Source: Chiridota heheva
Lineage: Eukaryota > Echinodermata > Holothuroidea > Apodida > Chiridotidae
Assembly: GCA_020152595.1 (NCBI GenBank)
Contig: JAIGNY010001587.1
Coordinates: forward strand, 2,729,501-2,793,500
Length of the DNA stretch: 64,000 nucleotides
Direction of reading: 5' to 3'
Below are positions 11,723-64,000 of this stretch, piece by piece. How positions within the stretch are numbered: position 1 is the stretch's first letter; the number at the start of each line of letters is the position of its first letter. The translations under genes and the position numbers were made by a program. The notes under the pieces are model-generated. The model searched no databases, was not told the DNA's origin, and saw only the letters and a list, made by a program, of their open reading frames with translations.

Positions 11723-12006
11723 TACAATTACTTTAAGGCGAGGTTTATAGTTAAAATGGGATTACTGAAAATACAATAAGATATTACGTCCTCTCAGTGT
11801 TTCCTTCATACCTGATGTTCAACCACCCAGCACTCGCTGCCGCCCCTCCCCATCTCCTTGCTCACAATCTAAACCTGTCGCGTCCATTACTGTATGAATT
11901 ATAAATATGATGCAATATACTTCCATTTAATACATTTTCAAGAAAATAATAGCGACAAAACAACATTATTATTTCAGCTTGAATCTTTCCTCCACCAGAA
12001 GCAGAC

Positions 12007-15165: not shown

Positions 15166-15449
15166 GGAGCAGTCTTTTCCATAGCACAATAACTTTTATC
15201 ATCTTATCTAAGTGAAGATGCACCAAGTTTATTACATTTGTTAAAAGTATTGAAGTTTCCTACTACATTAATGGTTAACTTGTAACTTGGGGCTTAAAAT
15301 GGCGGAATTAGAAGAAGTGTTGTACGCGCTACAATTAAGTATCTTGTAGAATATGAACGATGTATGCCATAAACTGATAAACAGGCATATGAAATATGAA
15401 TGTCTTGTTATAAATACACGAAAATAAGTTTTCGGTTTATTGCAAAAGT

Positions 15450-29692: not shown

Positions 29693-29827
29693 ATGTTTTA
29701 TTTTATTGGGCTTGGCCTAGGAGGCGTTCAAGATATAACAGTACGTGGCCTTGATGTTGTCAAGAGATCGTCAAGGGTCTACCTGGAGGCGTACACTTCC
29801 ATTCTTACAGATGGAAAAGCTGCTTTG
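29693..29827 (+). CDS. DPH5: DPH5 coding exon 1
   Basis: The ATG opens 45 whole codons encoding the glycine-rich GLGLGG loop and a [20 protein letters not shown] segment, ending in GKAAL. The donor is TTG|GTAAGC, phase 0. No in-frame upstream ATG was chosen because the family begins exactly at this M-[FL]-Y-[FL]-IGLGLG start. Confidence 0.95.
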
Positions 29828-32800: not shown

Positions 32801-35800
32801 GAAATCCAAATAGATAGCATCCACATGAATAGTTTACTAGTTTAGTAACATCTTTAAGAAACTCCAATAAATTAGAAACACAACAGGCTCTTAGGTAAGA
32901 ACCCATGCTGGGACAAATTCAACAAACCATTGACCAGTAAATGATCTAGTACAACATCCTTAACATTGGACTCCATGATCTTACACAACACTAGTAAGAC
33001 TCACTGGCCTATAGTTACAGGGCAAACTGGTCAATTTTTTTTGTAGGAGTGACATTAGCAATTCTCCAGTCACTAGGAATAACACCAACATCAAAGCACT
33101 TTGAAAAGATGATACTCAGGGGAACAGAAAGAACATCAGAACACTCACGTAAAAGAGGATGTATACCATCTGGACTGGGTGCTTAATTGAATTCAAACCT
33201 AGTGTTTGCACCGGGTTTAAAATTCGGACCGGGTACCCAACCTGCATTATCGGCCAGGTATCTGACGTATCGACAAAGCATTTTCAATATTTTTCACGGA
33301 AGTAGTATATGTGTTAAAATCTAACAGTGTACCTTGTAAAATCTTGTAATATTTCTTGTTTTTCAATTGCACCTTTGTTTTTGTAAATAAAGAAACAGAA
33401 TACAAATGTTTCTTGTCTCTTATATTTACCCGTCTTCATAAAATACCATGAAATAATGATATACGCACTTCCTCGTAATTTCACAAGACGGGTCACTTGT
33501 TATTTTGGAATATTAAATACACGATTCCACCTCATTAACGCTATGCTGGGAATTACTGACTGATTCCACGATTCTGTTACGTGCACGCTCAGTAACACGT
33601 AACAATTTAATGTGAACACAACTTGTGATTGGTTCAGAATAGGTGTTACAATTTTTTTCAGCAAATAGCTGACACGCTTTCAAAACAGTTTGGTAATGTA
33701 CAACCGCAATATTTTTTTCAACAGCATACTACACACACACACTGCTTGTTGTGCACTGGTTTGGATATATATTTTTTTTTTACAGCGAAGTTTAGTTAAT
33801 TTAAGTTTTGTGCTACTTGTACATGTAGTACTACTAGTGTGTATACGTAGCCACATCGATCGTTCGACATCTTTTCTGCGATCTGTGACAATATTTTGTG
33901 ATCATTTTATTGTATTGCATTGGAATAGAAAGGAAACATACACTAATACACTTTAAAATTCTTGTAAGTTAAGATTTTTTTTTTTAACATAACATTTTAA
34001 TCTGAAACAGTCTGCAATTGGTAATATTATGAAAATCCATACCTGGGTTGTATTTTCGGAACCGGGTAACAACACAATCGGTCGGGTACCGGGATATTTT
34101 AGGTACCCATGTAAACACTATTTAAACCCTTTAACTTCTTAGACACAACATCAAATGCAAAATCAACATCCTTAATGGATACTGGAGAGTATACACTAAG
34201 ATAATCCACAACATCATCAGCAAGGGACTCCTTAGTAAAAACAGACACAAAGTAGTCATTCAAAACCTGAGTCATATCCTTTCCACTATTTTATAGTAAC
34301 ACCATCATTACCCTGAAGGGTCCAAAAACCTCTAGACTGAGAGCCCAGACAGTTTATTCAGCTGAAAAGATAAAAAAGGTTTGAATGTCAGGTCATGTCC
34401 ATCTGGACCAAGGACTCACTAATCAATGTTGCTGCCAGGTCACATCCTGCACCAGTAGCCAGGGGGCACAAGACAGGGGGCCAAAAAAATGCATTTATTC
34501 AGCCGAAGAGATACACGGACAAACTTTGTTGGATTATGCTCCCAAGCGGGTACTCTTGCTGGTCATAGCCATGACAGCAACTTATGCCTGTACCAGGACC
34601 CAGACAGTAGCCTTAAAGGGGCCCAATCAGTTGGGTTATTCAGCAAAAAAGATACATGGATGAATCTTCTTCTATTGGAACCATTATACATTGGGGGTCA
34701 CATAAATACCAATGACAGTAACTTTATCCTGTACCTAGGCCCAGACAGACAGTAACTTTAAAGGGCCCCTGTCCCTCAACTTGTTTATTCAGCCGAAAAG
34801 ATACATGGATGAATCTTCTTCTATTGGAATTATTAAACATAAGGGGTCACATAAATACCAATGACAGCAACTTTATCCTGTACCTGGGCCTAGACAGTAG
34901 TCTTAAAGGACCCCTGTCCCTCAACTTGTTTATTCAGTCAAAATGATATATGGATGAATCTTCTATTGGAACCATTATACCTTGGGGTTTACATAAATCG
35001 TCCAATGACAGCAACTTTATCCTGTACCTGGGCCCAGATAGTAGCCTTAAAGAGCCCCTGTCCCTCAACTTGTTTACACAGTCAAAAAGATACATAAATA
35101 AATCTTCTTCTATTGGAACCATTATACCTTGGGGGTCACATAAATACCAATGACATCAACTTTATCCTGTACCTGGGCCCAAACAGTAGCCTAAAAGGAC
35201 CCTTGCCCCTCAACTTGTTTATTCAGCCGAAAAGATACATGGATGAATCTTCTTTTATTGGAGCCATTATACTTTGGGGGTCACATAAATATTAATGACA
35301 GCAATTTTATCCTGTACCTGGGCCCAGACAGTAGCCATAAAGGGCCCTTGTCCCTCAACTTGTTTATTCAGCCGAAAAGATACATGGGTGAATCTTCTTC
35401 TATTGAAACCATTATACCTTGGGGGTCACATAAATACCAATAACACTAACTTTATCCTGGGCACCTGTCCCTCAACTCGTTTATTTAGCCAAAAAGATAC
35501 ATGAATGAATCTTCTTTCATGGGAACCAAGGTACCTTGGGAGTCACAAAAATAGCAATGACAACAACTTTATCATGTACTGGGGCCAAGACAGGAGCCTT
35601 AAAGGGCTTCTGTCCCTATTGTTTAATCAACTGAAATATACAGGATGAATCTTTTTTCCTTTAGGTTCATTATTCCCGGAGGACACAAAAGGGTTCATGA
35701 CAGCAAGTTTATCTTGTAACGCAGCCTAGACAGTAGCCTTAGGACCTATGCATAGTGTGTTATTAAGTCGAAAAGATACATGGATCAGTTTTCTTCCATT

Positions 35801-38800
35801 TAAGGTTGTATGCATGGCTACTTTGTCCTTATTGGGTCCCAAACAGTAATCATTAAGGGTTGAGTGGCCCTAACAGATAATTGAGTTGAAGCTATACGTG
35901 GGTAATACTTTTACATTGGAACTATTGTACCATTACTGAACAAAAATACCAAATTATCTTTACCAAGACATGGTCAGAAGATACTGGAATCCTTTAAGTG
36001 TTTAACGAAGTAAATATTTTGATGAAAACAACATTCTGACAAATTACTTTAGTGGTAAAAGTTGATTCAAAGTTAATCTTTTAACTTTCAACAGTATGGT
36101 TTTTCTCACAACAGAAGAAAATAAATGCTTAAAGTGAACGTAGATGTGGACAATATTTACAACAAATTGTATGCCTGTTATAATAAAAATAAAGATCGCC
36201 CAAAGCCGGGTGGGTCAGTTTTGTTTGAAGTAACAACTCTAGATTGAATTGTTTTGTTTGCTATTGAAGAGGGGTGGGGTGGGGAAGTAGAGGGTGAAAG
36301 TGGTCAAGGCAAATCTATGAAGATAGTTTGAGATGTGCATTTTACTGGAACATCATTGAATATAGCGTGTATGTGCACTAAAATGCCATAATTACTATCT
36401 TCCTATCCAAAATTGTTGTTACTTTTCATTATTTATTTCTTCACCTGGGAGTGGTCACAACTAAAAGGCCTTATCCTATAGAGGCCAGCCTACCTAATTT
36501 ATCTTTCCCATGTAGTTGATGAATAACAGATAAGATAAATATGTAAATAAATCATAACTGTCCAAATTTTTTAAAGAGCATAAAAGATAGTAGGTAATCA
36601 GTTACCATTTTTTACAAAATTTTAAAAAGCGATGGGGGGAGGGAGGGGCAGGCGAGGGTTGATATGGGTTTCAGTTTATTTTATTTTTTGGCTATGTGCA
36701 ATATGCTCACCTATATATATGCTCACCTGGGTGAAACATATATATTTATGTGTAATTTGATATTTTTTGGTGTGGGATTCGGGGGATATGGCTCCCATGT
36801 CCCCCACACCCTCTGGCTATGCCAATGCTTGCACATACATTAGCAAATTCACTTGTCTCATTGAAAGCAACAGATTGAAAAGTTTGTTTAATCCCAATGT
36901 ATTTTAAATGAATTATCTGCCTTTGACTTAAAAACTACTATTTATATATTATCTTCAGGGACTTCGCCTGCTTAGAAAAACTGGATTGGACAAAATTGTT
37001 TGTGTGCTAATTTTCATTGACCCGTCTTGTCCGGTTTTGATAAGGGGCGATGTGAGTAACCAATAGTGTGCAACTTGCAGATTTAGAGAAATAGGTGATG
37101 ACCTTTTTTTTTTTGCTTTTCAAAATATTCGGGGCTGAATTATAAAATATGCTTTTGGTTGGTAACATCTAACCATTCGGGCAAAAGTGCTGTGCCCCCA
37201 CCCCCTCCAACCCTCAGTTCAATGACCTTTCACATGCCTATGTAAACCAGGGACCATGCACTTTGCACAATGTCGTAATCTCGTTTCCAAACTTAGGGTC
37301 ATGACTAAAAAGGCAGCTCAATGGTTTGCAACACGGACCCGTAGCCCAATATGAGGTGCGGACCTTATTTGGGTTAACTGTCTGGGCCACTGTACAGGAG
37401 GAAATTGCTGTCACTGTTGTTTTTGTAACCCCTATGTATAATGGTTCTAATAGAAGAAGATTCATCCATGTATTTTTTTGGCTAAATATTCCCCCACCCT
37501 GAGTGGGCCCCTTTAAAGCTACTGTCTGGGTCCTGGTACAGGCATGGGTTGCTGTCATGGCTATGGCCAGCATGAGTGCCCTCTTGGGAGCATAACCCAA
37601 CAAATTTTGTCTGTGTATCTCTTCAGCTGAATAGATGCATTTTATGGCCCCCTATCTTGGTACTGGATGTGACCTGGCAGCAACATTGATTAGTGAGTCC
37701 TGGGTCCAGATGGACATGACCCAACATTCAAAACTTTTTTTATCTTTTCAGCTGAATAAACTGTCTGGGCTTCCAATCTACTCCTTGGGTTTTTGTTTTC
37801 AGCGAACATAAGAGTGAAATGACTAAGATTAATCTTAACCTCTTATGACAAAAAGCACTTTAGTATCTCTTATCAAACCCTTTGTGTTCTTTTTATGCTC
37901 CTTATACCTAGCAAGCTCTGAAGGACACCCACTGTTTTGAGAAAAACACCACAACCTTTCCTTTTTCCGAACAGCCCACAAAACCTCCAAAGACATCCAC
38001 ACTGGCCAATTACGCCTACATACTTTCTTTAATGGGACAAAGCTTTTCACACCCTCCAAAACTTTAGTTTGGAAAACATCACATGATTTAGAAGGATCTA
38101 AGTCACAGAGCAAAGAAATCCAATCGAATGACAGATTATCCTGAAGTGCAACAAAGTCAGCATTCTTAGAATCTAAAACCAGTTTATTAGCTGGAGAAAC
38201 CTTTGTGAAACGATACAGATCAAAACTAATGAGGTCATGATCACTACACCCTACCTTACTGCTACTATGTAGCACATTTCTAACATACTTTCTTCACTAC
38301 TGAAAATCACTCAAGACAATAACAAGATTGAAAGTTTATTAATTAATTTGTTGATGTTTACCAAACCTTTTTCTTCAAAACAGGAAGAGTTTTACGGGAG
38401 GGAGATCATATTGGCCGATAGAGATATGGTTGAGCAGCAATCAGACGAACTATTCAGAGATGCAGATAAAGAGGACATTGCCTTTCTTGTTGTTGGTGAT
38501 CCTTTTGGGTAGGATAAATTGCTCAAGATTTTTCAAAGAATAAATGACCTTTGGGTGCAACAGCCAAATTGCTTTGTAGTCTATAATCTTTTTTTTTTTT
38601 TAAAGATATAAAAGTAGCAAAAAAAAATTGTATCAAAAGTGGATATAAATTACCCATTTCATAGCTTTTAGGAATATTAAGACATCAATATGTAAATTTG
38701 TGATGTATGTTTGGGTGGCCTTGGTATTTTCTTATTTCATTTTTGGTTTTGATGCGATAGCATAAGGAACCTATATAGGCATGCTGGCATGTGTATGTTT

Positions 38801-41800
38801 GTATGTGTATGTATGTACAGTATGTGTGTCTGTCAACAAGCTTGTAAACACGATATCTCAACTATTCAGTGGATTTATGTCATACTGGGTATATGGATGT
38901 GTTGTGGTCTGTAGATGATCCCTATTGTTTTTGGTGGTGATGTCACGAATATTAACTAGTTTGCTAGTGGGCAGGGCTAAATGTAAAATTCTGTAAACAA
39001 GCTTGTAAATGCGATATCTCAAGAACCGTGCAGTGGATTTATGTCATACTTGGTATATGGATGTGTTGTGGTCTGTAGATGATCCCTATTGTTTTTGGGT
39101 GCTGATGTCATAAGTATTAATTAGTAGGCGGGGGTAAATGTAAAATTTTGTTAAGCCTGTAAACACGAAATCTTAAGATCCTCAAAGTGGATTAATGTCA
39201 TACTTGGTATATGAATGTGTTGTGGTCTGTAGATGATCCCTATTGTTTTTGGTGCTGATATCATGAATATCTATTAGTAGGCAGGGCTAAATATAAAATT
39301 CTGTTAACATGCTTGTAAACACAAAATCTGAAGATCATTGAGGTGGATTAATGCCATACTTGGTCTGATGTACTCTAGATGATCCCTTTGCGTTTGGTGC
39401 TGATGTCATGAATATCAATGAGAAGGCAGGAATAACTGTAAAGTTTAAACAAGAAACAAACAATACAAAAGCTACAGGTTCCAGTGTGATAAATACCTAA
39501 ACATGTGAAAATAAAACACTTAAAGAAATACGATGCTTCTAATCTAAAATTACAGTAGCATCGAAACCACGAGAGATTTCTGTCTGGTTTGTTTGTCTTT
39601 TGAATGCCTTATCATAAATCTTTTGAATGGTGTAGCAAATTTAGACTTAAATGTTTTGCCATACCCCCGATGAAATTGTAGTTGCAATATGTTTTCTCAT
39701 CAGTTTTAGTGATTGGGGATTTGTAAATTAAATTTTAAGGAGACATCAAGTCTGACATCATCCTCATTTCATATTATAGAATTGAAAATTACAAATGTAC
39801 TGACCAAGTTTTATAACTCTCGAACCAATCTAACACATTTTTTGTAATCATATACTACTACTTAATAGTACCATGGGAGTTGCCATTTCAAAACATGCAG
39901 AATATGTCATCAGCCCAGCAGGATGTTGGAATGCTTTGTATTTCTTTATAATCTACCTCAAGTTTTCTAGCTAATGAATTTTTTTTTTTTTTGTAAGGGT
40001 CAAGGAAATTTTGATGTACACATGAAATTATCAAAACATGCTGTTAAAACTTTGTGTCACATCATTATAGAATAAAAACTTTAATCGCATTTTGTTTGTT
40101 TGTTTGTCATCAAGATATCTCAAGAACTGTAGATTGGATTCTGAACAAAATTGGTTTGCAGTTTTGTTACTGCCCAAGGACGAAGTGTGAAAAATTTGGG
40201 ACTTATTGGTACAGGGGAAGGGTGAGAATGGAGGGTTGAGGACATGTTTTTACCTCCTGTTTGTTTACCTATCATCAAGATATCTCAAGAACTGATAATT
40301 GTATTTGGATTAAAATTGTTGTGTGGTTTTGTTACTGTTCAAGGAAGAAGTGATTAAAATTTGAGACATTGGAACAGGGAAAGGGTGCAAATGGAGGGGT
40401 GGGGACATTTTAAGGTGAGTTTGTCTGTCATCAAGATATCTCAAGAACTGAAGATTGGATTTTGAATAAATTTTGTGTGTGGTTTTGTTACTCTTTCAGG
40501 AAGAAGTGTTTAAAATTTGGGACTAATTGGGACAGGAGAAGGCAGAAATCAAGGAGTGGGGATGTTTTAGGATAAGATCTGTCAAGACTTAAGTTGTCAA
40601 GATATAAGTTGAAACTGTCCAATGGAATTTGCTGAACAACTGACTTTGCACTCTGAATGAAGATACAAACAATCAATTTTCTGGACTCAGAGAGACTTAC
40701 ATCAAGTGTTCTCTGGAATCATTGAAAATAAAGCAATTGGTTTCTGCCATGAATAGAAAATAATGGAATGTGAATCCTGCTTGAATAGAGCTCAAACAAT
40801 CATGCTTCGCTTGAATAAAACAGAAAACAATGATACTGCCTCAGAAGAAATCCAGTCAGAAGATAATCTTGAAGTGTTTAGATTGCAAATGTTCATTACA
40901 GATCAAAACTTGGGGATGAATCTTGGTGGGCCTCTAATTTCTGAGGTAGATTATATTGGGTATGGGGATCAAACGAACTCTATAATTATTCTAGGCATGT
41001 TGGAATGCAACAGGCGGAGGTATGCCCACTAGAGAGTGTTAGTATTTTAGTTTCTTTTAATTCAATTAATTTCTTTCTTCACATTTCAGTAGAAATTGTT
41101 AAAACTCTGTAATAGACAAAAATATAAAATGTGAAACGGGGGCTCTAAAAATCCCTGATGGATTTGAAAAAATTTACATCTTGTACAGCTTTTGAATGTC
41201 AAATGTTGGGAATTAACAAACATTTCTGATCAATTGCCAGATGCATTTAAGATACTGAGCCCACCCTTCAAAGATGATTTGTTTGCTGTCCCAACTTACC
41301 AACTCAATTGTTTTTCACTTTTCTTAATTGACAATATCTTATTATATAAAGATATTCCAAAATTCTTCAAATTTACTTCTTTTTTAAAACCCTACCTATG
41401 CAACCCAACTTTTCTCAGCTAGTTGTTTTTACAGCAAACTAACGGTATGTTGTGGATGACCTGAGTGAAATTTCCTTTTATGTTTTCATGACATCCTTCA
41501 TATACGATTACATGACGTCTTCAATTACTTCACTGTTTTGTTTTGCAAAGGGCTACAACTCATACAGACTTGCTGCTAAGAGCAAAACTAGAAGGCCTGG
41601 AGTACAAGGTTATACATAATGCATCAATTCTGAATGCCATTGGATGTTGTGGTTTGCAGGTAAGGAAATACATCATTTTTACCTTTATTTTGTATCTATT
41701 TTTTCCATGAAAATTTGATTCCTCAATTATACTTTCCTTCCAAGAGATGTATCTCTGATGAATATTTTGTCAAGAGAAATATATTAGGCCTATAAAAATA

Positions 41801-44800
41801 ATGATATAATCTTTGTGTCATGCATCATCCAATCACAGACCAATTAGACTCTTCTCATGTATTTACGGACCTACGGCAGATATGCTCATACTCACAGACA
41901 GGTGGGGGAGAGGGGAAGGGGGAGGAGGGACTCAATTTTAAGGACTTAGGTCTCAGACTTAAGATGAGCCTCAAGTCTTGTTTTTTCTTTGACTTGGACC
42001 TAAACACTTGGGAAATAAGATTCAATTAGGTTGATTCAACTACAACACTGCTTGGTATATAAGCCCTTTATCCTATCTTGTTATATTTTATTTACACCTA
42101 AAGACCTTTACCCTACAGTAAAAGGAAGAACATCATGTTATTATGTGATACTCTTTGAGTATTCCAAATGTGGGTAATGTGAACATATGTTTGAAGAGAA
42201 TAAGAAGCTATAAGAGGAAAGATAAAAGACTTATGCTTGACTTGAATGCAATTACAAAACCTTATGTATAAAGAAAATCAATATGGCAACGAAGATAATC
42301 AATTTGATAAATAATGTAGGAAAAATATTGTTTAAGTTCAAAAACATTGAGGAGGTTGTTAAGAGTAATTTCCATGGGTGTTGAAAGGAAAGGGACGGGG
42401 TACTTACAGCAAGCTTTTATATTATAATAATTATACTAATTTTATTTATTGCATTATTGATTCAAGGAATTATTTTGGTGTAATTAATGTGTTACACAAA
42501 AGTATTTAGAAAATTGTTTTTAGGTATTTCTCACTTTATGTCAAAATATGTGCATCCACCTGCCTTTTTTTCAGCTCTACACATACGGAGAGGTCGTGTC
42601 AATTGTATTTTGGACGGATTCTTGGAAACCGGATAGCTATTATGAAAAGATTGCTTCAAATCAGAAAAGGGGTTTACATACACTTTGTTTGTTGGACATT
42701 AAAGTTAAGGAACAAAGCATAGAAAATTTAATGAAGTAAGTGCATTATTTGTTCGTAAATTAAAAAGGTATTTAAATGTAGAAGCAACATTGGCTAGCTT
42801 GCTTGAATTAGTTGAAAACGGAAAAAAGATAGTTGAAAAAATTGGCCATTTAGAGTTTTTTTTATTTTCTGCTTTGATCAAGCTTACTGCTCACTTTAAT
42901 TTACAAATCCTTTTATGGTCATCTACAGTACCTCAATACTTAGATTTTGAAGGTTAATTATACCTATAGGGGTGTGAATGTGTACTGGGCCAGTGTATAG
43001 AGGAGGGGGTAGTTAGGGTTGCATTTCTATTTATTGTTGTTGTTGTTATTAATATTTGTATTTAAGGACCAGACTAGAAAAGATTACTATTTCTGGTCCT
43101 TTATCTTTTCTCAGTTAGCTACTACATCACATGTTTATAGCTATTAAGTGTGTGCTCTATACTCATGTTTCTTACAAAATGTTTTTGAATATTCCATTGT
43201 GCAAACTTCTTGCTATGATTTATGTATATGTTGTTGTAAACTGATCAAAAGATAAAAATAAATTAAACAAATCAAATAATCAAAACGTAGGCAGAATGGA
43301 CAATGGTAGAAAATGAGAAATTTACAGAATTATACAAAGACTTTGCTCTGTCTATTCAATCATAAAGTCTTTTATATATTGAGAAGTTCTTAAACTTTGC
43401 TTGGCCAAACTCTGGAAAAATGTTTTTTTTACAATTCTGAGATTGCTACGCAGGTTGTGTTGGTCTTTTAAACAGAGTTTTAATCTGTATTCATATGTAG
43501 ACAATTCAAGGGGCTATGACAAACTGATGTACTCTTTGTAAATCTATCACAAGATGGTTATTAGTCTTGAACATTTCAGGTAAAGAAAAATAAAATAAAA
43601 AACCCATATCTGCAATCTGCCAAAACATTGACCACTAAGGAAATAGAGCCATGCACATTGCATTTTTCCATATTGCACACATTTCATTCATTTGTAGGCC
43701 TTGGTATCTACAGTAATTACTTTGTTATGTTTGCATGAAGAAATAATTATGTCTGCATTTTATTTTGTCTTATTCTAATTACCAAATCTTTCTTATGTGA
43801 CTACTAGCTTACTTACACTGGGAAGTGGGTTAGTGCCACTCCCTTGCTTAACCCTAACTCTACCAGCACTTTTTTGAAAATGCGCTTGGGAGGCGGGGTC
43901 AAAGGTGGGGTACCCAAAACGGTGATAACATCGTTGCGTGGTAGAGTAAGGGTTAAGCACAGACTGATTATTGAATGGTCCTCTGTCTTCAGAGCAGCAG
44001 AGTCGAGCTCGTTCCTCTTCAAATGACCCATCGTGGCCATGCTGCACATATTTTTGAGTTGACACACTTGTCGCGGGCTTCTTAACCTTTACTCTACCAC
44101 AGCACTTTTTTGAAAAGGTGCTTGAGAAGCGGGGTTAAAGATGGGGCACCCAAAACGGCGATAATATTGCCACGTGGTAGAGTACTTAAACCTCACATAT
44201 TATTGCACACCATATTGCTGTTTGCACAAGTGAGCTCTAAAGTGTTGCTTTCCTGGTCTGATAGATATACATCAACTCCATGTATCAAACCTTTAACAAG
44301 GAAAGAGGTGCAGAGGTCAAGGAGTCATGATCGTATGCAAAAGATATCAGGTTGGACTCCTGTGGCGAACGCTGCATTGTATCCTTGAGGAAGACACTTT
44401 AGTAGGTACTCATTTTGCAGCTACAGAGTTGACTGGAGTAAGTAGAGTACCAGCACTGCTGGGGAGCTAACCTGAGATGGACTGGCATCTTATCCAGGGG
44501 GAGACATGTGCTCTCATTTGCTTACGTCAAGAAAACCGAGAATAAGCACTGACCTGGCCTGATGATGCTTTTTGGCGGGAGTATGGATTAACTTTTTTTT
44601 AATAACAAAGAAAGATGAGATTTTATTTCATAATTGTGACACTCAATGTACATTTAAGCTTGTAACCTTTTAGTAACCTCTGTAGTTTGAGTGACCCTTG
44701 AGTGCTTTGATGGTTTTCTTATTTCAAAAACAGGATAATATTTGCATGTATTTATACATATGTATATTGCTTTAAGAAGCTATTTTTTGGTATGATTTGC

Positions 44801-46736
44801 TCTTCAGGGGAAGAAAAATTTATGAGCCGCCACGTTACATGACAGTACAGCAGGCTGCGTCACAGTTGATTGAAATCGTTGAGAAGAAGAGGCAGGAAGG
44901 AGAAACTCCAGGTAAGAATTCTTGCAGGAATTTACTTGACACTTAGAAACATTTTATATAGAAATACCATCTTGGGTAAAACTCCCCATTTCAATGTTGG
45001 TGAAAACTTTAAGCACATTTTGTTTTTTAAAATCAGGGACTGCATTAAACTGGGAAGCTGGGACACGGAAGAACCATTAATATATAGAGGAAAATTAGAG
45101 AAGTTATGGAACAGTTTTGTCAAAGATTGCAGTTTTGGTGTCGCCAACAATGGGGAACATATTATTTGGGTAGTTCTAACAAATGCCAGGTGGTCCTTCA
45201 AATTTGAGACATTTGTTTTTGTCAAAACTAAGTGCAGTGCTGTTAGTAGGCATATTGGCCCTATATTTTCAAGGTTGATATGCCTGAAGGAGATATTCAG
45301 ATTTTCACAAAAGCTTTCTGACTTTTATTTAATTTGAAAATAAGAATTGACAAGCAGCAAATTATCTTCATAACCTGTCCTCAACCATTTCAATCAACTG
45401 TGATGCAGCCTGCTGTACTGTCATGTAACATGGCAGCTCATAAATTTTTCAAAGCAGATTTTTTTAAGAGCAAATCGTACCAAAAAAAAAAAGCTTCCTA
45501 TATTTAAATACATGCAAATATTTTGGCTTTTTATGCTTTTTGACTGCTTTTTGTATCCACTTAATTTTGACTCTTTTATTTTTTTTTTTTTTGGGGCAGG
45601 GTGCACTATGGGGAGTCATGTTTTAATAATCTTTGGTCCCAGTTTATGAAGAAAAAGATACATGATATATTTTAATTTGCAAATCATTTTTCTTGCATTT
45701 GCATTTTTTATATGCATTAGCACATGTTAGATATGTTTGTGAAATTTATAACCCTTTAATGATATATGGACAGATAACAGCAACTAGAGCTTATTTCCAC
45801 AAAAATGTCCTATTAACCACGAAAATATGCTATGAACCAAGAAAATATGCTTTGAACCACGAAAGTATGCTATGAACCACAAAAATATGCTATGAACCAC
45901 GAAAATATGCTATGAACCACAAAAATATGCTATAAACCACGAAAATATGATATGAACCGCGAAAATATGCTATTAACAAAGCAAGTATGCTATGAACAAA
46001 GAAAATATGCTATGAACGAAGAAAATATGCAATAAACCACAAAAATATGCTATAAACCACAAAAATATGCTGTGAATCACGAAAATATACCATGAATCAC
46101 AAAAATTTGCTATGAAACTCGAAAATATGCTACATGAAAATATGCTATGAACCTTGAAAATATGCTATAAACCACGACAATATGCTGTGTACCACGAAAA
46201 TATGCTATGAACCACGAAAATATGCTATGAACCACGCAAATATGCTATGAACCTCAAAACTATGCTATGAACCACAAAAATATGCTATGAACCACGATAA
46301 AATGCAATAAATCACAAAAATAACAAAAAGTTTTAGCAAAATTGGTTGGAAACTTTGATTAACCATCAAACTTTAAAACTACAGGTATTCTTGACATAAT
46401 TTAAAGACTGCTGGTCAGAAGTTTCACTATCTTTTATCGCAATTTACCTTCAATAATAGTTTTATCTGGGATGATATTCAACATGCATCATACTTTCTTT
46501 TATTTCGCCCTGAAGCATTCACAGAAGAAACCATTTGTGTTGGCGTGTCAAGAGTTGGCGCTGAAGATCAAAAGATTTTAAGTGGCACTCTTCAACAGCT
46601 GTCAGAAACGGATCTTGGGAAGCCTCTACATTCCTTAGTAATAGCTGGGCATATGCATCCTGTGGAAATTGACATGCTAAGACTTTTTGCAGTAGACACA
46701 AAAACATTTGATAATTTAAATGAGGAGGTGAGGTGA
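29693..46736 (+). CDS. DPH5: DPH5 gene, diphthine methyl ester synthase (six coding exons, complete)
   Basis: Joined exons 29693-29827, 38384-38508, 41551-41659, 42575-42735, 44808-44911 and 46516-46736 give one open frame of 284 residues plus a TGA stop; the human protein is about the same length. Family knowledge: DPH5 is a cytosolic S-adenosylmethionine-dependent methylase that methylates the modified histidine of elongation factor 2 during diphthamide synthesis. Seen in sequence: an N-terminal [11 protein letters not shown] start with the glycine-rich cofactor loop, VVGDPFGATTH across the exon 2/3 junction, the GCCGLQLY block across exons 3/4, [33 protein letters not shown] and a C-terminal [14 protein letters not shown] segment. 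All five introns are GT-AG with matching phases (0,2,0,2,1). Introns are 8.6, 3.0, 0.9, 2.1 and 1.6 kb and rich in transposons. No premature stops were found, so it looks functional. Untranslated exons cannot be placed. Confidence 0.96.
29990..31200 (-). mobile_element. 5'-truncated CR1/Jockey-like LINE, RT C-terminal half
   Basis: Antisense to DPH5 in intron 1. The open stretch 31085-30375 (236 codons) contains [14 protein letters not shown] (motif A), [15 protein letters not shown] (motif B), [11 protein letters not shown] (catalytic FADD, motif C), [16 protein letters not shown] and [14 protein letters not shown] (thumb). A HGFR-type segment lies upstream in another frame (about 31130-31200), and a tail with NALPP continues to about 29990 after stops. 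No endonuclease is present, so this is a 5'-truncated insertion. The long intact frame suggests it is relatively recent. Confidence 0.85.
31853..32168. mobile_element. Harbinger-like MITE with TAA target duplication
   Basis: 316 bp inserted in the LINE. The ends are TGCACTTGTCA and TGACAAGTGCA, extending to imperfect ~29-bp TIRs (25 of 29 match). A TAA trinucleotide flanks both sides (31850-31852, 32169-32171); removing the element and one TAA restores the LINE reading frame. A 3-bp T-A-rich duplication suits PIF/Harbinger elements (inference). It contains seven TGA[CG]TCA heptamers. Confidence 0.8.
33200..34120. mobile_element. Non-autonomous hAT-like element
   Basis: 921 bp with ends TAGTGTTTGC and GTAAACACTA, and subterminal inverted CCGGGT-type blocks (ACCGGGTACCC and GGGTACCGGG). 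The flanks TTCAAACC (33192-33199) and TTTAAACC (34121-34128) look like an 8-bp target duplication with one change, as hAT elements make. No transposase is seen. It splits the antisense LINE. Confidence 0.75.
34640..35780 (+). repeat. Tandem ~145-bp repeat inside the foldback element
   Basis: About seven diverging units each carry CCCAGACAGTAGCC, a TTTATTCAGCCGAAAAGATA block, TACATGGATGAATCTTCTT and GGGGTCACATAAATACCAAT. The TTTATTCAGC[CT]GAAAAGATA part is the same sequence as the element's terminus, so the array may have grown from the arm. Units decay toward 35780. Confidence 0.8.
36959..37051 (+). other. Candidate cassette exon in DPH5 intron 1
   Basis: TTATCTTCAG|GGACTT opens 31 stop-free codons (starting [15 protein letters not shown]) to GAT|GTGAGT. 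It is 93 bp and phase 0 at both ends, so inclusion between DPH5 exons 1 and 2 would keep frame. It sits inside the 3.4 kb foldback element. It could be a remnant of a transposon or captured exon, or chance. Confidence 0.3.
38384..38508 (+). CDS. DPH5: DPH5 coding exon 2
   Basis: The acceptor TTCAAAACAG precedes GAAGAGTTT (EEFYGRE), which continues exon 1 in phase 0. It encodes a [13 protein letters not shown] segment and ends within the conserved VVGDPFG motif. The donor is TTTTGG|GTAGGA, leaving two bases of a glycine codon (phase 2). Confidence 0.95.
38745..39568. mobile_element. GGTTCC-TIR element, copy A
   Basis: Starts GGTTTTGATGC and ends GCATCGAAACC, inverted with one mismatch. Just inside the left end GATGCGATAGCATAAGGAACC folds into a hairpin. 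The interior holds about four tandem ~150-bp units with CGATATCTCAAGAAC, GTGGATTTATGTCATACTTG, TGTGGTCTGTAGATGATCCC and AGTAGGCAGGGCTAAATGTA. No ORF. It lies in DPH5 intron 2. Confidence 0.75.
40100..40590 (+). repeat. Tandem ~160-bp repeat, three copies (DPH5 intron 2)
   Basis: CAAGATATCTCAAGAACTG occurs at 40111, 40276 and 40432. Each is followed by a TTTTGTTACT block, AAAATTTG[AG]GAC and a G-rich GGGTG stretch. The ATATCTCAAGAAC core is shared with the GGTTCC element units, hinting at a relation. Confidence 0.8.
41551..41659 (+). CDS. DPH5: DPH5 coding exon 3
   Basis: The acceptor TTTTGCAAAG is followed by G, which completes the glycine codon, then [20 protein letters not shown] and [15 protein letters not shown]. 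The donor is TTGCAG|GTAAGG, phase 0. The ATTH and GCCGLQ blocks are among the most conserved parts of this methylase family. Confidence 0.95.
42575..42735 (+). CDS. DPH5: DPH5 coding exon 4
   Basis: A strong polypyrimidine tract and TTTTTTTCAG acceptor lead into [17 protein letters not shown], then a [19 protein letters not shown] segment and [17 protein letters not shown]. The donor ATGAA|GTAAGT leaves two bases of a lysine codon (phase 2). Confidence 0.95.
43848..44189. mobile_element. Composite piggyBac-like MITE, copy I
   Basis: Two ~106-bp units (43848-43956 and 44082-44189), each bounded by TTAA and inverted CCCTAACTCTACCA/TGGTAGAGTAAGGG ends, flank a ~125-bp spacer with GATTATTGAATGGTCCTCTG and ACACACTTGTCGCGGGC. 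TTAA target sites with CCC...GGG ends resemble piggyBac relatives (inference). It lies in DPH5 intron 4. Confidence 0.75.
44290..44590 (+). mobile_element. tRNA-headed SINE
   Basis: An A-box-like GCAGAGGTCAAGGAGT and B-box-like GGTTGGACTCC (44350-44360) are followed by TTGAGGAAGACACTTTA, GGGGAGCTAACCTGAGATGG, ACTGGCATCTTATCCAGGG and a T-rich end. The layout of tRNA head plus conserved body with the GATGGACTGGCAT block matches widespread metazoan SINEs. It lies in DPH5 intron 4. Confidence 0.65.
44739..44892 (+). repeat. Arm 1 of an inverted duplication covering DPH5 exon 5
   Basis: This stretch (end of intron 4 plus most of exon 5) reappears reverse-complemented at 45374-45524. Shared runs include the TGACAGTACAGCAGGCTGC and CACAGTTGATTGAAAT blocks and the GGTA[TC]GATTTGCTCTT intron segment. 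Confidence 0.85.
44808..44911 (+). CDS. DPH5: DPH5 coding exon 5
   Basis: The acceptor TTTGCTCTTCAG is followed by G, which completes lysine, then [20 protein letters not shown] and [14 protein letters not shown]. The donor is CCAG|GTAAGA, phase 1. This exon and its upstream intron flank are duplicated in inverted orientation at about 45374-45524 inside intron 5. Confidence 0.95.
45374..45524 (-). pseudogene. DPH5: Inverted partial copy of DPH5 exon 5 plus intron flank
   Basis: Read on the minus strand, this matches 44739-44892. It still reads like the exon ([12 protein letters not shown]) but with substitutions, including the Pro and Arg of the EPPRYM motif changed. The acceptor CAGGGG is lost (TCTTAAAAAAA), so it is a non-functional copy. 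It lies about 480 bp downstream of exon 5 in intron 5, so the pre-mRNA could pair exon 5 with this segment. Confidence 0.85.
45805..46325. repeat. 20-bp minisatellite (DPH5 intron 5)
   Basis: About 26 degenerate copies of GAAAATATGCTATGAACCAC, with CAC/CAA/CTC variants. Confidence 0.92.
46516..46736 (+). CDS. DPH5: DPH5 coding exon 6 with stop codon
   Basis: The acceptor TTTCGCCCTGAAG precedes CATTC. It encodes [53 protein letters not shown] and a divergent tail ending NLNEEVR before TGA. The tail length matches the family. The stretch 46630-46725 resembles the 78-bp satellite unit that begins about 300 bp downstream. A GAGGAG|GTGAGG sequence at 46722-46733 is also a reasonable splice donor, so an isoform with a different C-terminus is possible. 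No AATAAA follows before the satellite. Confidence 0.93.
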
Positions 46737-47370
46737 TACCAGTGGGGTGAAAATGTGAAGAATTGTGACAGATATCTGGCAGTATTAAGATGTGACATGG
46801 AACAGCACCATAAGCAAATATGCCTACCAAAAGTAAGAAGGGGGAAGTCAAAAGTAGGGGGCCAAAATCAGGCCAAAATACAAAAATTGCCATGCAAAAG
46901 ATATATGATTTGGAAAAAAGTGGCGTGTAAGTGCCCCATTTTCCCCCAAATCCCGCCTATCAGCAGCAATGTTGCATTTTGAATAGAAATTGACTAAGAA
47001 TTATAACCATTTGTAAGTGCCCCTCATGTTCAGCTGCTAAGACCCAAAAAATCATTCTTAGAATGGACTGCTGTCCTTATAGATGCCCTGTGGAAAGCAA
47101 CATGCTAAGACTTTCTTGAAGATCCATAAACATTTGATAGATGGACTGCTGTCCTTATATATGCCCTGTGAAAATCAAAATACTAAGACTTTGTTGAAGG
47201 TCCATAAAGATTTGATAGATGGACTGCTGTCCTTATAGATGCCCTGTGAAAATCAAAATACTAAGACTTTGTTGAAGGTCCATAAAGATTTGATAAATGG
47301 ACTGCTGTCCTTATAGATGCCCTGTGGAAAGCAAAATACTAAGACTTTGTCAAAGGTCCATAAACATTTG

Positions 47371-48752
47371 ATAAATGTACTGCTGTCCTTATAGATGCCC
47401 TGTGGAAATCAACATGCTAAGACTTTCTTGAAGATCCATAAACATTTGATAAATGGACTGCTGTCCTTATATATGCCCTGTGGAAAGCAAAATACTAAGA
47501 CTTTGTTGAAGGTCCATAAAGATTTGATAAATGTACTGCTGTCCTTATAGATACCCTGTGGAAATCAACATGCTAAGACTTTCTTGAAGATCCATAAACA
47601 TTTGATAAATGGACTGCTGTCCTTATAGATGCCCTGTGGAAATCAACATGCTAAGACTTTCTTGAAGATCCATAAACATTTGATAAATGGACTGCTGTCC
47701 TTATATATGCCCTGTGGAAAGCAAAATGCTAAGACTTTGTTGAAGGTCCATAAACATTTGATAAATGGACTGCTGTCCTTATAGATGCCCTGTGGAAAGC
47801 AAAATACTAAGACTTTGTCAAAGGTCCATAAACATTTGATAAATGTACTGCTGTCCTTATAGATGCCCTGTGGAAAGCAAAATACTAAGACTTTGTCAAA
47901 GATCCATAAACATTTGATAAATGTACTGCTGTCCTTATAGATACCCTGTGGAAATCAAAATGCTAAGACTTTGTTGAAAGTCCATAAACATTTGATAAAT
48001 GGACTGCTGTCCTTATAGATGCCCTGTGGAAAGCAAAATACTAAGACTTTGTCAAAGGTCCATAAACATTTGATAAATGGACTGCTGTCCTTATAGATGC
48101 CCTGTGGAAAGCAAAATGCTAAGACTTTCTTGAAGATCCATAAACATTTGATAAATGGACTGCTGTCCTTATATATGCCCTGTGGAAAGCAAAATACTAA
48201 GACTTTGTTGAAGGTCCATAAAGATTTGATAAATGGACTGCTGTCCTTATAGATGCCCTGTGGAAAGCAAAATACTAAGACTTTGTTGAAGGTCCATAAA
48301 GATTTGATAAATGGACTGCTGTCCTTATAGATGCCCTGTGGAAAGCAAAATACTAAGACTTTGTTGAAGGTCCATAAACATTTGATAAATGGACTGCTGT
48401 CCTTATAGATGCCCTGTGGAAAGCAAAATACTAAGACTTTGTTGAAGGTCCATAAAGATTTGATAAATGGACTGCTGTCCTTATAGATACCCTGTGGAAA
48501 TCAACATGCTAAGACTTTCTTGAAGATCCATAAACATTTGATAAATGGACTGCTGTCCTTATAGATACCCTGTGGAAATCAACATGCTGAGACTTTGTTG
48601 AAGATCCATAAACATTTGATAGATGGACTGCTGTCCTTATAGATGCCCTGTGGAAAGCAAAATGCTGAGACTTTGTTGAAGATCCATAAAGATTTGATAA
48701 ATGGACTGCTGTCCTTATAGATGCCCTGTGAAAATCAAAATGCTAAGACTTT
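47371..48752. repeat. Higher-order repeat copy 1 within the 78-bp satellite
   Basis: About 1.38 kb that recurs with the same order of variant units at 48853-50234. The offset is 1482 bp = 19 x 78. There are a few single-base differences. Confidence 0.8.
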
Positions 48753-48852
48753 CTTGAAGATCCATAAACATTTGATAAATGGACTGCTGTCCTTATAGAT
48801 GCCCTGTGAAAATCAAAATGCTGAGACTTTGTTGAAGATCCATAAACATTTG

Positions 48853-50234
48853 ATAAATGTACTGCTGTCCTTATAGATGCCCTGTGGAAATCAACATGCT
48901 AAGACTTTCTTGAAGATCCATAAACATTTGATAAATGGACTGCTGTCCTTATATATGCCCTGTGGAAAGCAAAATACTAAGACTTTGTTGAAGGTCCATA
49001 AAGATTTGATAAATGTACTGCTGTCCTTATAGATACCCTGTGGAAATCAACATGCTAAGACTTTCTTGAAGATCCATAAACATTTGATAAATGGACTGCT
49101 GTCCTTATAGATGCCCTGTGGAAATCAACATGCTAAGACTTTCTTGAAGATCCATAAACATTTGATAAATGGACTGCTGTCCTTATATATGCCCTGTGGA
49201 AAGCAAAATGCTAAGACTTTGTTGAAGGTCCATAAACATTTGATAAATGGACTGCTGTCCTTATAGATGCCCTGTGGAAAGCAAAATACTAAGACTTTGT
49301 CAAAGGTCCATAAACATTTGATAAATGTACTGCTGTCCTTATAGATGCTCTGTGGAAAGCAAAATACTAAGACTTTGTCAAAGATCCATAAACATTTGAT
49401 AAATGTACTGCTGTCCTTATAGATACCCTGTGGAAATCAAAATGCTAAGACTTTGTTGAAGGTCCATAAACATTTGATAAATGGACTGCTGTCCTTATAG
49501 ATGCCCTGTGGAAAGCAAAATACTAAGACTTTGTCAAAGGTCCATAAACATTTGATAAATGGACTGCTGTCCTTATAGATGCCCTGTGGAAAGCAAAATG
49601 CTAAGACTTTCTTGAAGATCCATAAACATTTGATAAATGGACTGCTGTCCTTATATATGCCCTGTGGAAAGCAAAATACTAAGACTTTGTTGAAGGTCCA
49701 TAAAGATTTGATAAATGGACTGCTGTCCTTATAGATGCCCTGTGGAAAGCAAAATGCTAAGACTTTGTTGAAGGTCCATAAACATTTGATAAATGGACTG
49801 CTGTCCTTATAGATGCCCTGTGGAAAGCAAAATGCTAAGACTTTGTTGAAGGTCCATAAACATTTGATAAATGGACTGCTGTCCTTATAGATACCCTGTG
49901 GAAAGCAAAATGCTAAGACTTTGTTGAAGGTCCATAAACATTTGATAAATGGACTGCTGTCCTTATAGATACCCTGTGGAAATCAACATGCTAAGACTTT
50001 CTTGAAGATCCATAAACATTTGATAAATGGACTGCTGTCCTTATAGATACCCTGTGGAAATCAACATGCTGAGACTTTGTTGAAGATCCATAAACATTTG
50101 ATAGATGGACTGCTGTCCTTATAGATGCCCTGTGGAAAGCAAAATGCTGAGACTTTGTTGAAGATCCATAAAGATTTGATAAATGGACTGCTGTCCTTAT
50201 AGATGCCCTGTGAAAATCAAAATGCTAAGACTTT
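48853..50234. repeat. Higher-order repeat copy 2 within the 78-bp satellite
   Basis: Second copy of the 19-unit block. Landmarks are ATAAATGTACTGC at 48853 (against 47371) and AACATGCTGAGAC at 50063 (against 48581). Differences include GCCC to GCTC near 49348. Confidence 0.8.
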
Positions 50235-52189
50235 GTTGAAGATCTATAAACATTTGATAAATGGACTGCTGTCCTTATAGATGCCCTGTGGAAAGCAAAA
50301 TGCTAAGACTTTGTTGAAGGTCCATAAACATTTGATAGATGGACTGCTGTCCTTATAGATGCCCTGTGGAAAGCAAAATGCTAAGACTTTCTTGAAGGTC
50401 CATAAACATTTGATGAATGGACTGCTGTCCTTATAGATGCCCTGTGGAAATCAAAATGCTAAGACTTTGTTGAAGGTCCATAAACATTTGATAGATGGAC
50501 TGCTGTCCTTATAGATGCCCTGTGAAAATCAAAATGCTAAGACTTTGTTGAAGGTCCATAAACATTTGATAGATGGACTGCTGTCCTTATAGATGCCCTG
50601 TGAAAATCAAAATGCTAAGACTTTGTTGAAGATCTATAAACATTTGATAAATGGACTGCTGTCCTTATAGATGCCCTGTGGAAATCAAAATGCTAAGACT
50701 TTGTTGAAGATCTATAAACATTTGATAAATGGACTGCTGTCCTTATAGATGCCCTGTGAAAATCAAAATGCTAAGACTTTGTTGAAGGTCCATAAACATT
50801 TGATAGATGGACTGCTGTCCTTATAGATGCCCTGTGAAAATCAAAATGCTAAGACTTTGTTGAAGATCTATAAACATTTGATAAATGGACTGCTGTCCTT
50901 ATAGATGCCCTGTGGAAATCAAAATGCTAAGACTTTGTTGAAGGTCCATAAACATTTGATAGATGGACTGCTGTCCTTATAGATGCCCTGTGGAAAGCAA
51001 AATGCTAAGACTTTGTTGAAGGTCCATAAACATTTGATGAATGGACTGCTGTCCTTATAGATGCCCTGTGGAAAGCAAAATACTAAGACTTTGTCAAAGG
51101 TCCATAAACATTTGATAAATGGACTGCTGTCCTTATAGATGCCCTGTGGAAAGCAAAATACTAAGACTTTGTCAAAGGTCCATAAACATTTGATAAATGT
51201 ACTGCTGTCCTTATAGATGCCCTGTGGAAAGCAAAATGCTGAGACTTTGTTGAAGATCCATAAAGATTTGATAAATGGACTGCTGTCCTTATAGATGCCC
51301 TGTGAAAATCAAAATGCTAAGACTTTGTTGAAGATCTATAAACATTTGATAAATGGACTGCTGTCCTTATAGATGCCCTGTGGAAATCAAAATGCTAAGA
51401 CTTTGTTGAAGGTCCATAAACATTTGATAAATGGACTGCTGTCCTTATAGATGCCCTGTGGAAATCAAAATGCTAAGACTTTGTTGAAGATCTATAAACA
51501 TTTGATAAATGGACTGCTGTCCTTATAGATGCCCTGTGAAAATCAAAATGCTAAGACTTTGTTGAAGGTCCATAAACATTTGATAGATGGACTGCTGTCC
51601 TTATAGATGCCCTGTGAAAATCAAAATGCTAAGACTTTGTTGAAGATCTATAAACATTTGATAAATGGACTGCTGTCCTTATAGATGCCCTGTGGAAAGC
51701 AAAATGCTAAGACTTTGTTGAAGGTCCATAAACATTTGATAAATGGACTGCTGTCCTTATAGATGCCCTGTGGAAAGCAAAATGCTAAGACTTTGTTGAA
51801 GATCCATAAACATTTGATAAATGGACTGCTGTCCTTATAGATGCCCTGTGGAAATCAAAATGCTAAGACTTTGTTGAAGGTCCATAAACATTTGATAGAT
51901 GGACTGCTGTCCTTATAGATGCCCTGTGGAAAGCAAAATGCTAAGACTTTCTTGAAGGTCCATAAACATTTGATGAATGGACTGCTGTCCTTATAGATGC
52001 CCTGTGGAAAGCAAAATACTAAGACTTTGTCAAAGGTCCATAAACATTTGATAAATGGACTGCTGTCCTCATAGATGCCCTGTGGAAATCAAAATGCTGA
52101 GACTTTGTTGAAGGTCCATAAACATTTGATGAATTTACTGCTGTCCTTATATATGCCCTGTGGAAAGCAAAAATGCTAAGACTTTCTCA

Positions 52190-52469
52190 AATTATGGGAA
52201 ACATTTTTTTAAATTTATTGATATGGGGAACAATATGACCTTTGCAAGACATACTTTGGCATCTGCTCATGTACCTTATATTCTGAATGAAATAAAAAAA
52301 TCAAATTCATTTTAGAGAAATACAAAGAATTATCTTAGATCAACAATTATGACCATCACACTTTTCACTGCAAGGTTGCTTTTTAAAACAATGGTGAAAT
52401 ATATAAACTGCAGTAATTTCCAAACAAAATAAGATATTACCATGGTTTTTCATTAATTTGTTCCTTTAA
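52190..52469. mobile_element. Palindromic TTAA element, copy 4 (right half only)
   Basis: Matches the right arm of the 12-15 kb copy. CATCTGCTCATGTACCTTA is the reverse complement of TAAGGTACATGAGCAGATG-type sequence at 12252-12270. An ACCATCACACTTTTCACTGC block and the CCTTTAA end follow. It directly abuts the 78-bp satellite on its left; no left arm was found upstream of the satellite. Its terminal TTAA is shared with the piggyBac-like MITE that follows. Confidence 0.75.
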
Positions 52470-52974
52470 CCCTTACTCTACCACGCGGTGATAATACGTG
52501 GCGATATTATTGCCAATTTTGGGTGCCCCATTTTTGACCAGTCGCTGACTAGGTAACTGAAGCGGAACGAGCCCTGACTCTGCTGCTCGGAAGACAGAGG
52601 ACCCTTCAATAATCAACATGTGCATAACCTTTACTCTACCAAGTGGTGATATTATCGCTGTGTTGGATGCCCCATCTTTGTCCCGCCTCCCAAGTGCGTT
52701 TTCAAAACAGTGCTGGTAGAGTAAGGGTTAATCAACCCGCGACAAGTGTGCCAACTAAAAAGATATGCAGCATGGTCCCAGTGGGCGGCCCACTGGGTCA
52801 CTGAAGCGGAATGAGCCCAACTCTGCTGCTTGGAAGACAGAGGACCCTTCAATAATCACCATGTGCTTAATCCTTACTCTACCACACGGCGATGCCATTT
52901 TGGGTGCCCCATCTTTGACCTGCCTCCCAAGTGCATTTTCAAAACAGTGCTGGTAGGGTAAGGGTGATAGTCCT
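52466..52974. mobile_element. Composite piggyBac-like MITE, copy II (three units)
   Basis: Reverse orientation relative to copy I. Partial and whole units begin at 52466, ~52625 and ~52870 with C[CT]TTACTCTACCA and TGGTAG[AG]GTAAGGG ends, separated by two spacers carrying GACCCTTCAATAATCA-type sequence. It starts on the same TTAA that closes palindromic element copy 4. Confidence 0.75.
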
Positions 52975-54880: not shown

Positions 54881-55195
54881 ATGGAATGCCATGTGGGAGA
54901 TATGGTGGAATGCCATGTGGGACAAGGGATGGGGTAGGATGTCATGCGGGACATAGGGTTGGATGCCATGTGGGACATGGGATGGGATCCATGTGGGACA
55001 TAAGGTGGGATGCCATGTGGGTCATAGGATGGGATGCCATGTGGGACATGATGGAATGCCATGTGGGACATATGGTGGAATGCCATGTGGGACATATGGT
55101 GGATATCATGTAGGACATATGGTGGAATGCCATGTAGGAGATATGGTGGAATGTCATGTGGGACATGGGATGCCATGTGGGACTTAGTGTGAGAA
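54880..55195. repeat. ~26-bp minisatellite, right block
   Basis: Continuation of the 53880-54265 repeat, with GGTGGAATGCCATGTGGGAC variants. Confidence 0.88.
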
Positions 55196-55229
55196 GCCAT
55201 TTTTATAATTGGCCTCGTCATATGATATT

Positions 55230-58140: not shown

Positions 58141-58484
58141 TTACCCTTGAAACGCAGCACTTTTTTGAAAACGCGCTTGGGAGACGGGATCAAAGATGGG
58201 GCACCCAAAATGATGATAATATCGCCGCATGGTAGAGTAAGGGTTAAGCACAGGCTGATTATTGAAGGGTCCTCTGTGTTCTGAGTAGCAAAATTGGGCT
58301 TGTTCCACTTCAGTGGGCCACCCACCGGGACCATGCTGCAGATATGTTTGAACTGGCACACTTGTCTAGGGTTGATTAACCCTTACTCTACCAGCACTTT
58401 TTTGAAAATGCGCTTGGGAGGCGGGGTCAAAGATGGGGCACCCAAAACAGCAATAATATCGCCGCATGGTAGAGTAATAGTTAA
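58141..58484. mobile_element. Composite piggyBac-like MITE, copy III
   Basis: Same unit-spacer-unit layout as copy I. The units contain GCACTTTTTTGAAAA[AT]GCGC and GGGGCACCCAAAA; the second starts at TTAACCCTTACTCTACCA near 58378. The spacer has GATTATTGAAGGGTCCTCTG and CATGCTGCAGATATG. Confidence 0.78.
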
Positions 58485-59171
58485 GAGAAAATTAAACTGG
58501 ATGTTTGACCTACCCTAACATATATTTATGGAATGAAGTCTCTGTATCAGGTTCCCACATAGGCAAAACTTTAAGAATGACCAATCAAAATGCTGAATAA
58601 CTAAGAAGTTTGTTTGAATAAAACATCAATTCTTTGACAAAAATTATGTTTCTATAGAAATACTTGCATATTATCAAGATAGAATTAATGGTTGGTGGGG
58701 CAATTATTTTGGTAAAATCTTGTTTTAGAAAAATAAAAATCACTTTTGCATCCTCTAAATAAGTCTCACATTCACCACAAACAGTTACTTAATGCAGTAC
58801 ACACACTTGCATTGGTATGGCAACCGTATGCATCCAACTTAGGCAGTTAGAGGTTCACGACAGGAATGACTTGCTTCTTTTAAGATTGGTCTTCCTATCC
58901 CCATTCTTTGGACGAAGGAAGTTCTGGTGCTCATAAGAACCCCAACAATGACCTTCTTGATATGCATTCTTCCTGATGTGCTGATTAAGAGCTGCTTTGG
59001 TTGGAGGAAGAAGTCCCATAGACCTGCCTTTATCTTGGAAAAGCTGCAAGTGAGCTTAATCTTTACTACATGTTTTGTTATATAACAATGTAACAAAGTG
59101 TTCTAAAAGAGCCAAAGGCACATCATAATTGATTGACATGCATTGTTTGATAGGTAACATTCACGTTTTAG

Positions 59172-63745: not shown

Positions 63746-64000
63746 CAGTTCATTCCTCCAAGTTGGGAACTGATAAAGCCACACCAGTTCATTCTTCCCA
63801 GTTGGGAACTGATAAAGCCACACCAGTTCATTCTTCCCAGTTGGGAACTGATAAAGCCACACCAGTTCATTCTTCCCAGTTGGGAACTGATAAAGCCACA
63901 CCAGTTCATTCTTCCCAGTTGGGAACTGATAAAGCCACACCAGTTCATTCTTCCCAGTTGGGAACTGATAAAGCCACACCAGTTCATTCTTCCCAGTTGG
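63746..64000. repeat. 39-bp minisatellite running off the window
   Basis: About 6.5 copies of TTGGGAACTGATAAAGCCAC plus ACCAGTTCATTCTTCCCAG. 39 is 13 codons, so a minus-strand frame reads an uninterrupted GKNELVWLYQFPT repeat. The array continues past position 64000. Confidence 0.95.

Follow-up and report, generated by a model that had tools for sequence, protein, structure and literature searches.

A 64,000-nucleotide stretch of the Chiridota heheva genome (contig JAIGNY010001587.1), which we refer to as the window, carries the housekeeping gene for diphthine synthase, DPH5, and just downstream of it a long array of 78-bp tandem units. Where did this array come from, and is it of any use to the gene? 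Most satellites and minisatellites cannot be followed back to where they began, since the seed has decayed. At this locus the seed is readable because selection maintains a conserved coding exon, so that the array should be datable and its growth open to reconstruction. It is very probable that a fragment of DPH5 exon 6 seeded the array, which was then amplified locally and in place and now forms a passive minisatellite in the 3′ flank of the gene (or in a long 3′ untranslated region (UTR)). The coordinates of all features are given in Table 1.

Tandem Repeats Finder (TRF) described the array with a period of 78 bp, 65.7 copies and 94% matches. Cutting by a script at a fixed anchor gave 66 anchors and units, with all 65 spacings exactly 78 bp and 35 distinct units. 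An earlier reading by a model that saw the letters without database searches (the sequence-only reading) had counted about 66 copies of a 78-bp unit, in agreement with these values. The range given there, 46630 to 52185, includes the source exon segment; the array proper begins at 47062. The distance from the DPH5 stop codon to the array start, put at about 300 bp in that reading, was 326 bp. The last unit has one extra internal base and is then broken off. Among the 65 full units, 19 of the 78 columns were variable and the mean pairwise difference was 6.1%. The GC content was 0.367 in the array and 0.364 in the window. When units were compared at increasing distances, 12 of 47 pairs were identical at a lag of 19 units, and at most five at any other lag between 1 and 39. 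Because of this peak we attribute a block duplication to unequal exchange: units 5–21 (47374–48699) were similar to units 24–40 (48856–50181). Three open stretches of 129–181 amino acids on the minus strand of the array (stretches of at least 110 amino acids were listed) gave no support for translation; by eye, they are interrupted where unit column 36 is T (31 of 65 units), and a coding array was rejected. No RNA families at gathering score and no tRNAs were detected in the window, and COX1 had no match in the assembly.

The array unit is homologous to part of exon 6. Unit positions of about 22–78 were collinear with the exon segment listed in Table 1, and three ordered blocks common to exon and unit, on which the sequence-only reading had based its proposal, were located in both. 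Aligned locally with two joined copies of the TRF consensus, exon 6 scored 55; 2000 shuffled units reached at most 32 and 2000 shuffled exons at most 29. The copy closest to exon 6 was identical at 51 of 56 aligned bases, with four gaps besides, and scored 63 as a single and 65 as a doubled unit; the best of 5000 dinucleotide shuffles scored 33. Such an alignment with shuffled controls had been set beforehand as the test of an exon origin. With scores of 55–65 versus shuffle maxima of 29–33, chance similarity between exon and unit was ruled out. Over the 56 aligned columns the units diverged from exon 6 by 8.9–19.6%. Within the window, blastn of 46659–46714 against the closest copies resulted in E = 4e-8 and 82% identity, gaps counted. 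When all six exons were compared with the window by blastn (E up to 0.01), exon 6 gave 65 array matches and exon 5 one inverted copy, and exons 1–4 matched themselves only.

The homology did not extend significantly beyond the core. With three scoring schemes and two unit variants, 263–944 of 2000 shuffles were as good as the upstream extension and 594–1048 of 2000 as good as the downstream extension. A weaker block, TCCTTA..ATAG, that had been claimed further upstream therefore lies within chance. Since extension into the remaining about 25 bp stayed within the range of the shuffles, the exon-derived part is, judged from these alignments, about 53–57 of the 78 bp. We also searched the assembly for the 22-base non-exon part with up to three mismatches and obtained 71 matches, the 66 of the array and five elsewhere. 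All five had three mismatches, and about five were expected by a rough estimate. A distant repeat may still be the source of this part, because the reversed control gave 0 matches and two of the five (C826 and C1954) were letter-identical. A match of the unit core to intron 5 (46478–46499, score 27) was reached by 2 of 500 shuffles under a strict and 42 of 500 under a lax scheme; it is not claimed, because it was one of seven regions tested in two schemes and shuffles reach its score.

The array was private to the DPH5 locus within the 1.1-Gb assembly. A 28-base core motif, with up to two mismatches allowed, had 67 forward and no reverse matches: 65 in the array, exon 6 itself and a single two-mismatch site on a different contig. 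The reversed pattern had one match. A 401-bp query from the array start found one candidate place. The DNA similarity search skips very common words; its result with the 401-bp query was concordant with the pattern scan. The unit was not abundant at many loci. Because the core was confined to exon 6, the array and the one site with two mismatches, the array is not a genome-wide satellite in this assembly; such a satellite, unrelated to DPH5, is what the sequence-only reading had named as speaking against its proposal.

DPH5 consists of six exons on the plus strand, the translated stretches of which contain no stop before the end. Exon 6 has an acceptor AG at 46523–46524 (by eye) and ends with the stop codon TGA at 46734–46736. 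The family profile TIGR00522 (dph5) matched the 71-residue exon 6 peptide with 7.8e-14, residues 1–58 corresponding to profile positions 198–256 of 258. The peptide also matched solved diphthine synthases over about residues 1–58, and among the best 60 of 139 rows of structure matches 59 were diphthine synthases. The top structure match, a DARPin (6mol), had no single stretch that passed and was taken as chance. Exon 6 alone had no match in Pfam at E up to 0.1, and it did have a match in NCBIfam. In the assembly, TIGR00522 gave five exon matches (exons 1–4 and 6), which were collinear on contig C1581, and none elsewhere (all seven candidates were scored). Exon 5 is short, was absent from these matches and was read by eye. 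As a control, the profile was matched to four archaeal genomes and Bacillus subtilis, with matches above the cut-off in four of the five. DPH5 was thus found once in the assembly.

The copied stretch corresponds to residues 45–64 of the exon 6 peptide, and residues 45–58 are inside the part aligned with the family. Since most of this stretch falls into the conserved family part and DPH5 was found once, the direction from exon to array is supported, and the exon would be the older partner. The exon base was among the array alleles at all 14 aligned variable columns, a count that is favoured by the use of the closest copy for the alignment. It was the minority allele at three columns, 36 (31/65), 40 (11/65) and 61 (28/65). 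Read by eye in the frame of the exon, the closest unit lacks two bases and contains a stop, in line with the loss of frame proposed before. The earlier claim that a piece of the exon was duplicated downstream and amplified was strengthened by the homology, the uniqueness of the array, the single DPH5 gene and the conservation of the source.

The array probably arose as follows. About 55–62 bp near the 3′ end of the terminal coding exon would have been copied a few hundred bases downstream, in a local duplication by template switching or microhomology-mediated repair. The fragment would have been joined with about 21–25 bp of other sequence into the 78-bp unit, and this unit presumably multiplied on the spot, through slippage and unequal exchange, until 66 copies were reached. 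The growth of a local array needs no special cause, because arrays are common here. In the window plus the 200 kb around it (264 kb), TRF gave 26 array rows (period of at least 15, at least three copies, at least 150 bp), corresponding to 24 arrays of 20.3 kb in all, as two arrays were split over piece borders.

Several points weigh against this scenario. About 21–25 of the 78 bp of each unit are not accounted for by exon 6. Similarity to the exon showed no trend from one end of the array to the other (Spearman −0.006, p 0.96), and the edges held no decayed copies above shuffles: 63 and 123 of 500 shuffles matched the left 120 bp, and 372 and 401 of 500 were as good for the right 145 bp. Neither result gave a hint of the founding end. 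An inverted pair of dispersed repeats (43851–44184 and 52632–52965) brackets exons 5–6 together with the array, and a rearrangement between the two may have occurred. The evidence comes from one assembly. Finally, the lack of a function is an inference.

The array most likely has no function and is passive. For a role in DPH5 3′-end formation or in gene conversion of the exon, both suggested in the sequence-only reading, the analysis gave no support. An alternative, which we consider doubtful, is that the array is transcribed as the 3′ UTR of DPH5 and affects 3′-end formation or mRNA stability. A search with ten poly(A) hexamers revealed neither AATAAA nor ATTAAA on the plus strand between the stop codon and the array end, and the first AATAAA, a possible poly(A) signal, follows the array (Table 1). 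The units contain weak variants (58 CATAAA, 50 GATAAA and 7 TATAAA). However, the missing signals are unremarkable: the density of AATAAA/ATTAAA on the plus strand of the window is 2.66 per kb, so that the 326 bp from stop codon to array should hold about 0.9 of them, and the array repeats one single unit. Weak variants at 46877 and 46982 could also terminate the mRNA ahead of the array.

It is less probable still, and in our view unlikely, that exon 6 is not the last exon and that the array is intronic, preceding a short further exon. This would require the use of a donor-like site, GAG/GTGAGG at 46725–46733 (phase 0, GT at 46728). The motif AGGTGAG occurs seven times on the plus strand of the 64 kb, one of them here. 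Read-through at this site, however, reaches the stop two codons later, and hardly any conserved residues can be missing, because TIGR00522 was matched to position 256 of 258 within exon 6.

Ongoing gene conversion between array and exon, which would maintain exon-like alleles in the array or alter the exon, is very improbable. The array does contain exon-like minority alleles, such as the C that 11 of 65 units have at column 40, but simple ancestry accounts for them, and exon 6 fits its family and has an open frame up to its end. There is next to no likelihood that a genome-wide satellite or mobile-element repeat landed beside DPH5 and resembles the exon by chance, although tandem arrays and dispersed repeats abound in the genome, another array (12006–15166) is flanked by inverted repeats like a mobile element, and the inverted pair brackets exons 5–6 and the array; against this stand the distribution of the core motif and the failure of any shuffle to reach the exon–unit score, no inverted pair was found directly at the array ends (E up to 1e-6, starts less than 6 kb apart), and the bracketing pair says little because its family has thousands of first-look candidates (5865, of which 40 were scored).

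Table 1. Features of the DPH5 locus and its array (window coordinates).
Feature	Position	Strand	Basis and remarks
78-bp tandem array	47062..52185	+	TRF plus anchor-cutting script, genome pattern scans
Block duplication, offset 19 units (1482 bp)	47374..50181	+	Unit-pair identity; limits approximate
Exon 6 segment homologous to array unit	46653..46714; strict core 46659-46713	+	Alignments versus shuffles, blastn
DPH5 exon 1	29693-29812	+	Profile-match limits, not splice sites
DPH5 exon 2	38372-38509	+	Profile-match limits, not splice sites
DPH5 exon 3	41552-41674	+	Profile-match limits, not splice sites
DPH5 exon 4	42569-42718	+	Profile-match limits, not splice sites
DPH5 exon 5	about 44808..44911	+	Translation; limits set by eye at splice sites
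DPH5 exon 6, coding part with stop, source exon	46525..46736	+	TIGR00522 match, translation
Inverted copy of exon 5 and part of upstream intron, inside intron 5	45380..45522	-	blastn, translation
Dispersed-repeat fragment between stop codon and array	46818..46960	+	Matches elsewhere in assembly
First AATAAA after DPH5 stop, possible poly(A) signal	52291..52296	+	Hexamer search; 106 bp past array

A second exon of the gene also has a local copy. The inverted copy of exon 5 derives from 44737–44883, is 497 bp apart from this source and has 78% identity overall and 94% over 71 coding bases. It was present nowhere else in the assembly. Two of six DPH5 exons with private local copies suggest a tendency of the locus, with only two events to go by. 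As a side aspect, exon 5 and the inverted copy could pair with each other in the DPH5 pre-mRNA to form a duplex.

For six of the 26 TRF rows, a relative of the unit was detected in the flank with a score that exceeded the best of 40 shuffles by more than eight points; in two further rows (L038 and L044) the margin was smaller. This base rate is a local one. By eye, the partner in the five flagged rows other than DPH5 was an array stretch (L037, both L045 rows and 54882–55200) or an inverted relative (34571–35459). The DPH5 partner was the one known as a coding exon among the six, coding content having been examined there only.

The fragment between the stop codon and the array belongs to a dispersed repeat: of the best 40 of 261 candidates, 39 were on other contigs and lay within 46772–46993 (72–89%), and many of the listed matches span the fragment in Table 1. 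Another dispersed repeat, the family of the bracketing pair, occurs at 52548–52965, 43851–44184 and 58155–58485 and is in places arranged in tandem, at intervals of about 245 bp. It is found on many contigs, the 5865 candidates mentioned above having been obtained for a query containing it, and its copies are located on either side of exons 5–6, two of them mutually inverted. Intron 5 of DPH5 harbors a second minisatellite (45797–46322) with 26.5 copies of a 20-bp unit and no flank relative above shuffles. The array mentioned at 12006–15166 has 53 copies of a 50-bp unit (12272–14934) between inverted repeats of about 200 bp (12006–12211 and 14970–15166, 71%) and resembles a non-autonomous mobile element with an internal tandem array. 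A 145-bp array and its inverted relative, 2–3 kb away, account for 34571–35459 and 37377–37780. A 39-bp array crosses the window end, from 63746–64000 into L036:1-798, with 96–99% matches over about 1 kb.

How does the DPH5 array compare to known systems? A literature search found no paper combining satellite, DPH5 and tandem repeat, and a search pairing sequence stuttering with exon led to a single match. Exon stuttering, a form of sequence stuttering, was reported in chicken, mostly on dot chromosomes (PMC12954441, 2026). In that report, exon parts of 20–187 bp (median 36) are present in 1–44 copies (median 4) over areas of 112–23,555 bp. The screen covered introns, and 190 of the 236 introns were on dot chromosomes and 46 elsewhere. 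More than 90% of the sources lay within 1 base of an exon border, the units were imperfect and less organized, and the authors propose a link with GC-rich sequence.

As in exon stuttering described there, part of a coding exon was copied beside its source and expanded into tandem units that are tens to hundreds of bases long, the source coding exon stays intact, and the copies near the source exceed shuffles. Unlike in chicken, the DPH5 array is very regular with its 66 copies, all spaced by 78 bp. It starts past the stop codon and outside any known intron, but the donor-like site at 46728 could place it in one. Its source lies within the exon and stops 19–20 bp short of the stop codon (homology to 46713–46714), and the region has 36% GC and is not GC-rich. 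The DPH5 sequence and the retroelements of the window also point away from a bird host. Since both the source at an exon border and the GC-rich surroundings are lacking, the DPH5 array is a variant of the exon stuttering kind and not a plain member.

The array also resembles an ordinary variable number tandem repeat or minisatellite in its period, homogeneity, signature of unequal exchange and restriction to one locus, and head-to-tail units of 10–100 bp at one locus are what was found here. What sets it apart from this class is a known seed, the protein-coding exon some 350 bp away. We concluded that the DPH5 array is interesting and not categorically new. A more tentative idea, possible rather than probable, is that DPH5 is a local hot spot where exon fragments are repeatedly copied into adjacent non-coding DNA, exon 5 in inverted form into intron 5 and exon 6 into the 5-kb array. 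This would be exon stuttering in an animal other than a bird and in DNA that is not GC-rich; if true, this would show that exon stuttering is general and not tied to GC-rich microchromosomes. The locus suggests that the expansion of exon fragments, known mainly from GC-rich bird chromosomes, may occur elsewhere.

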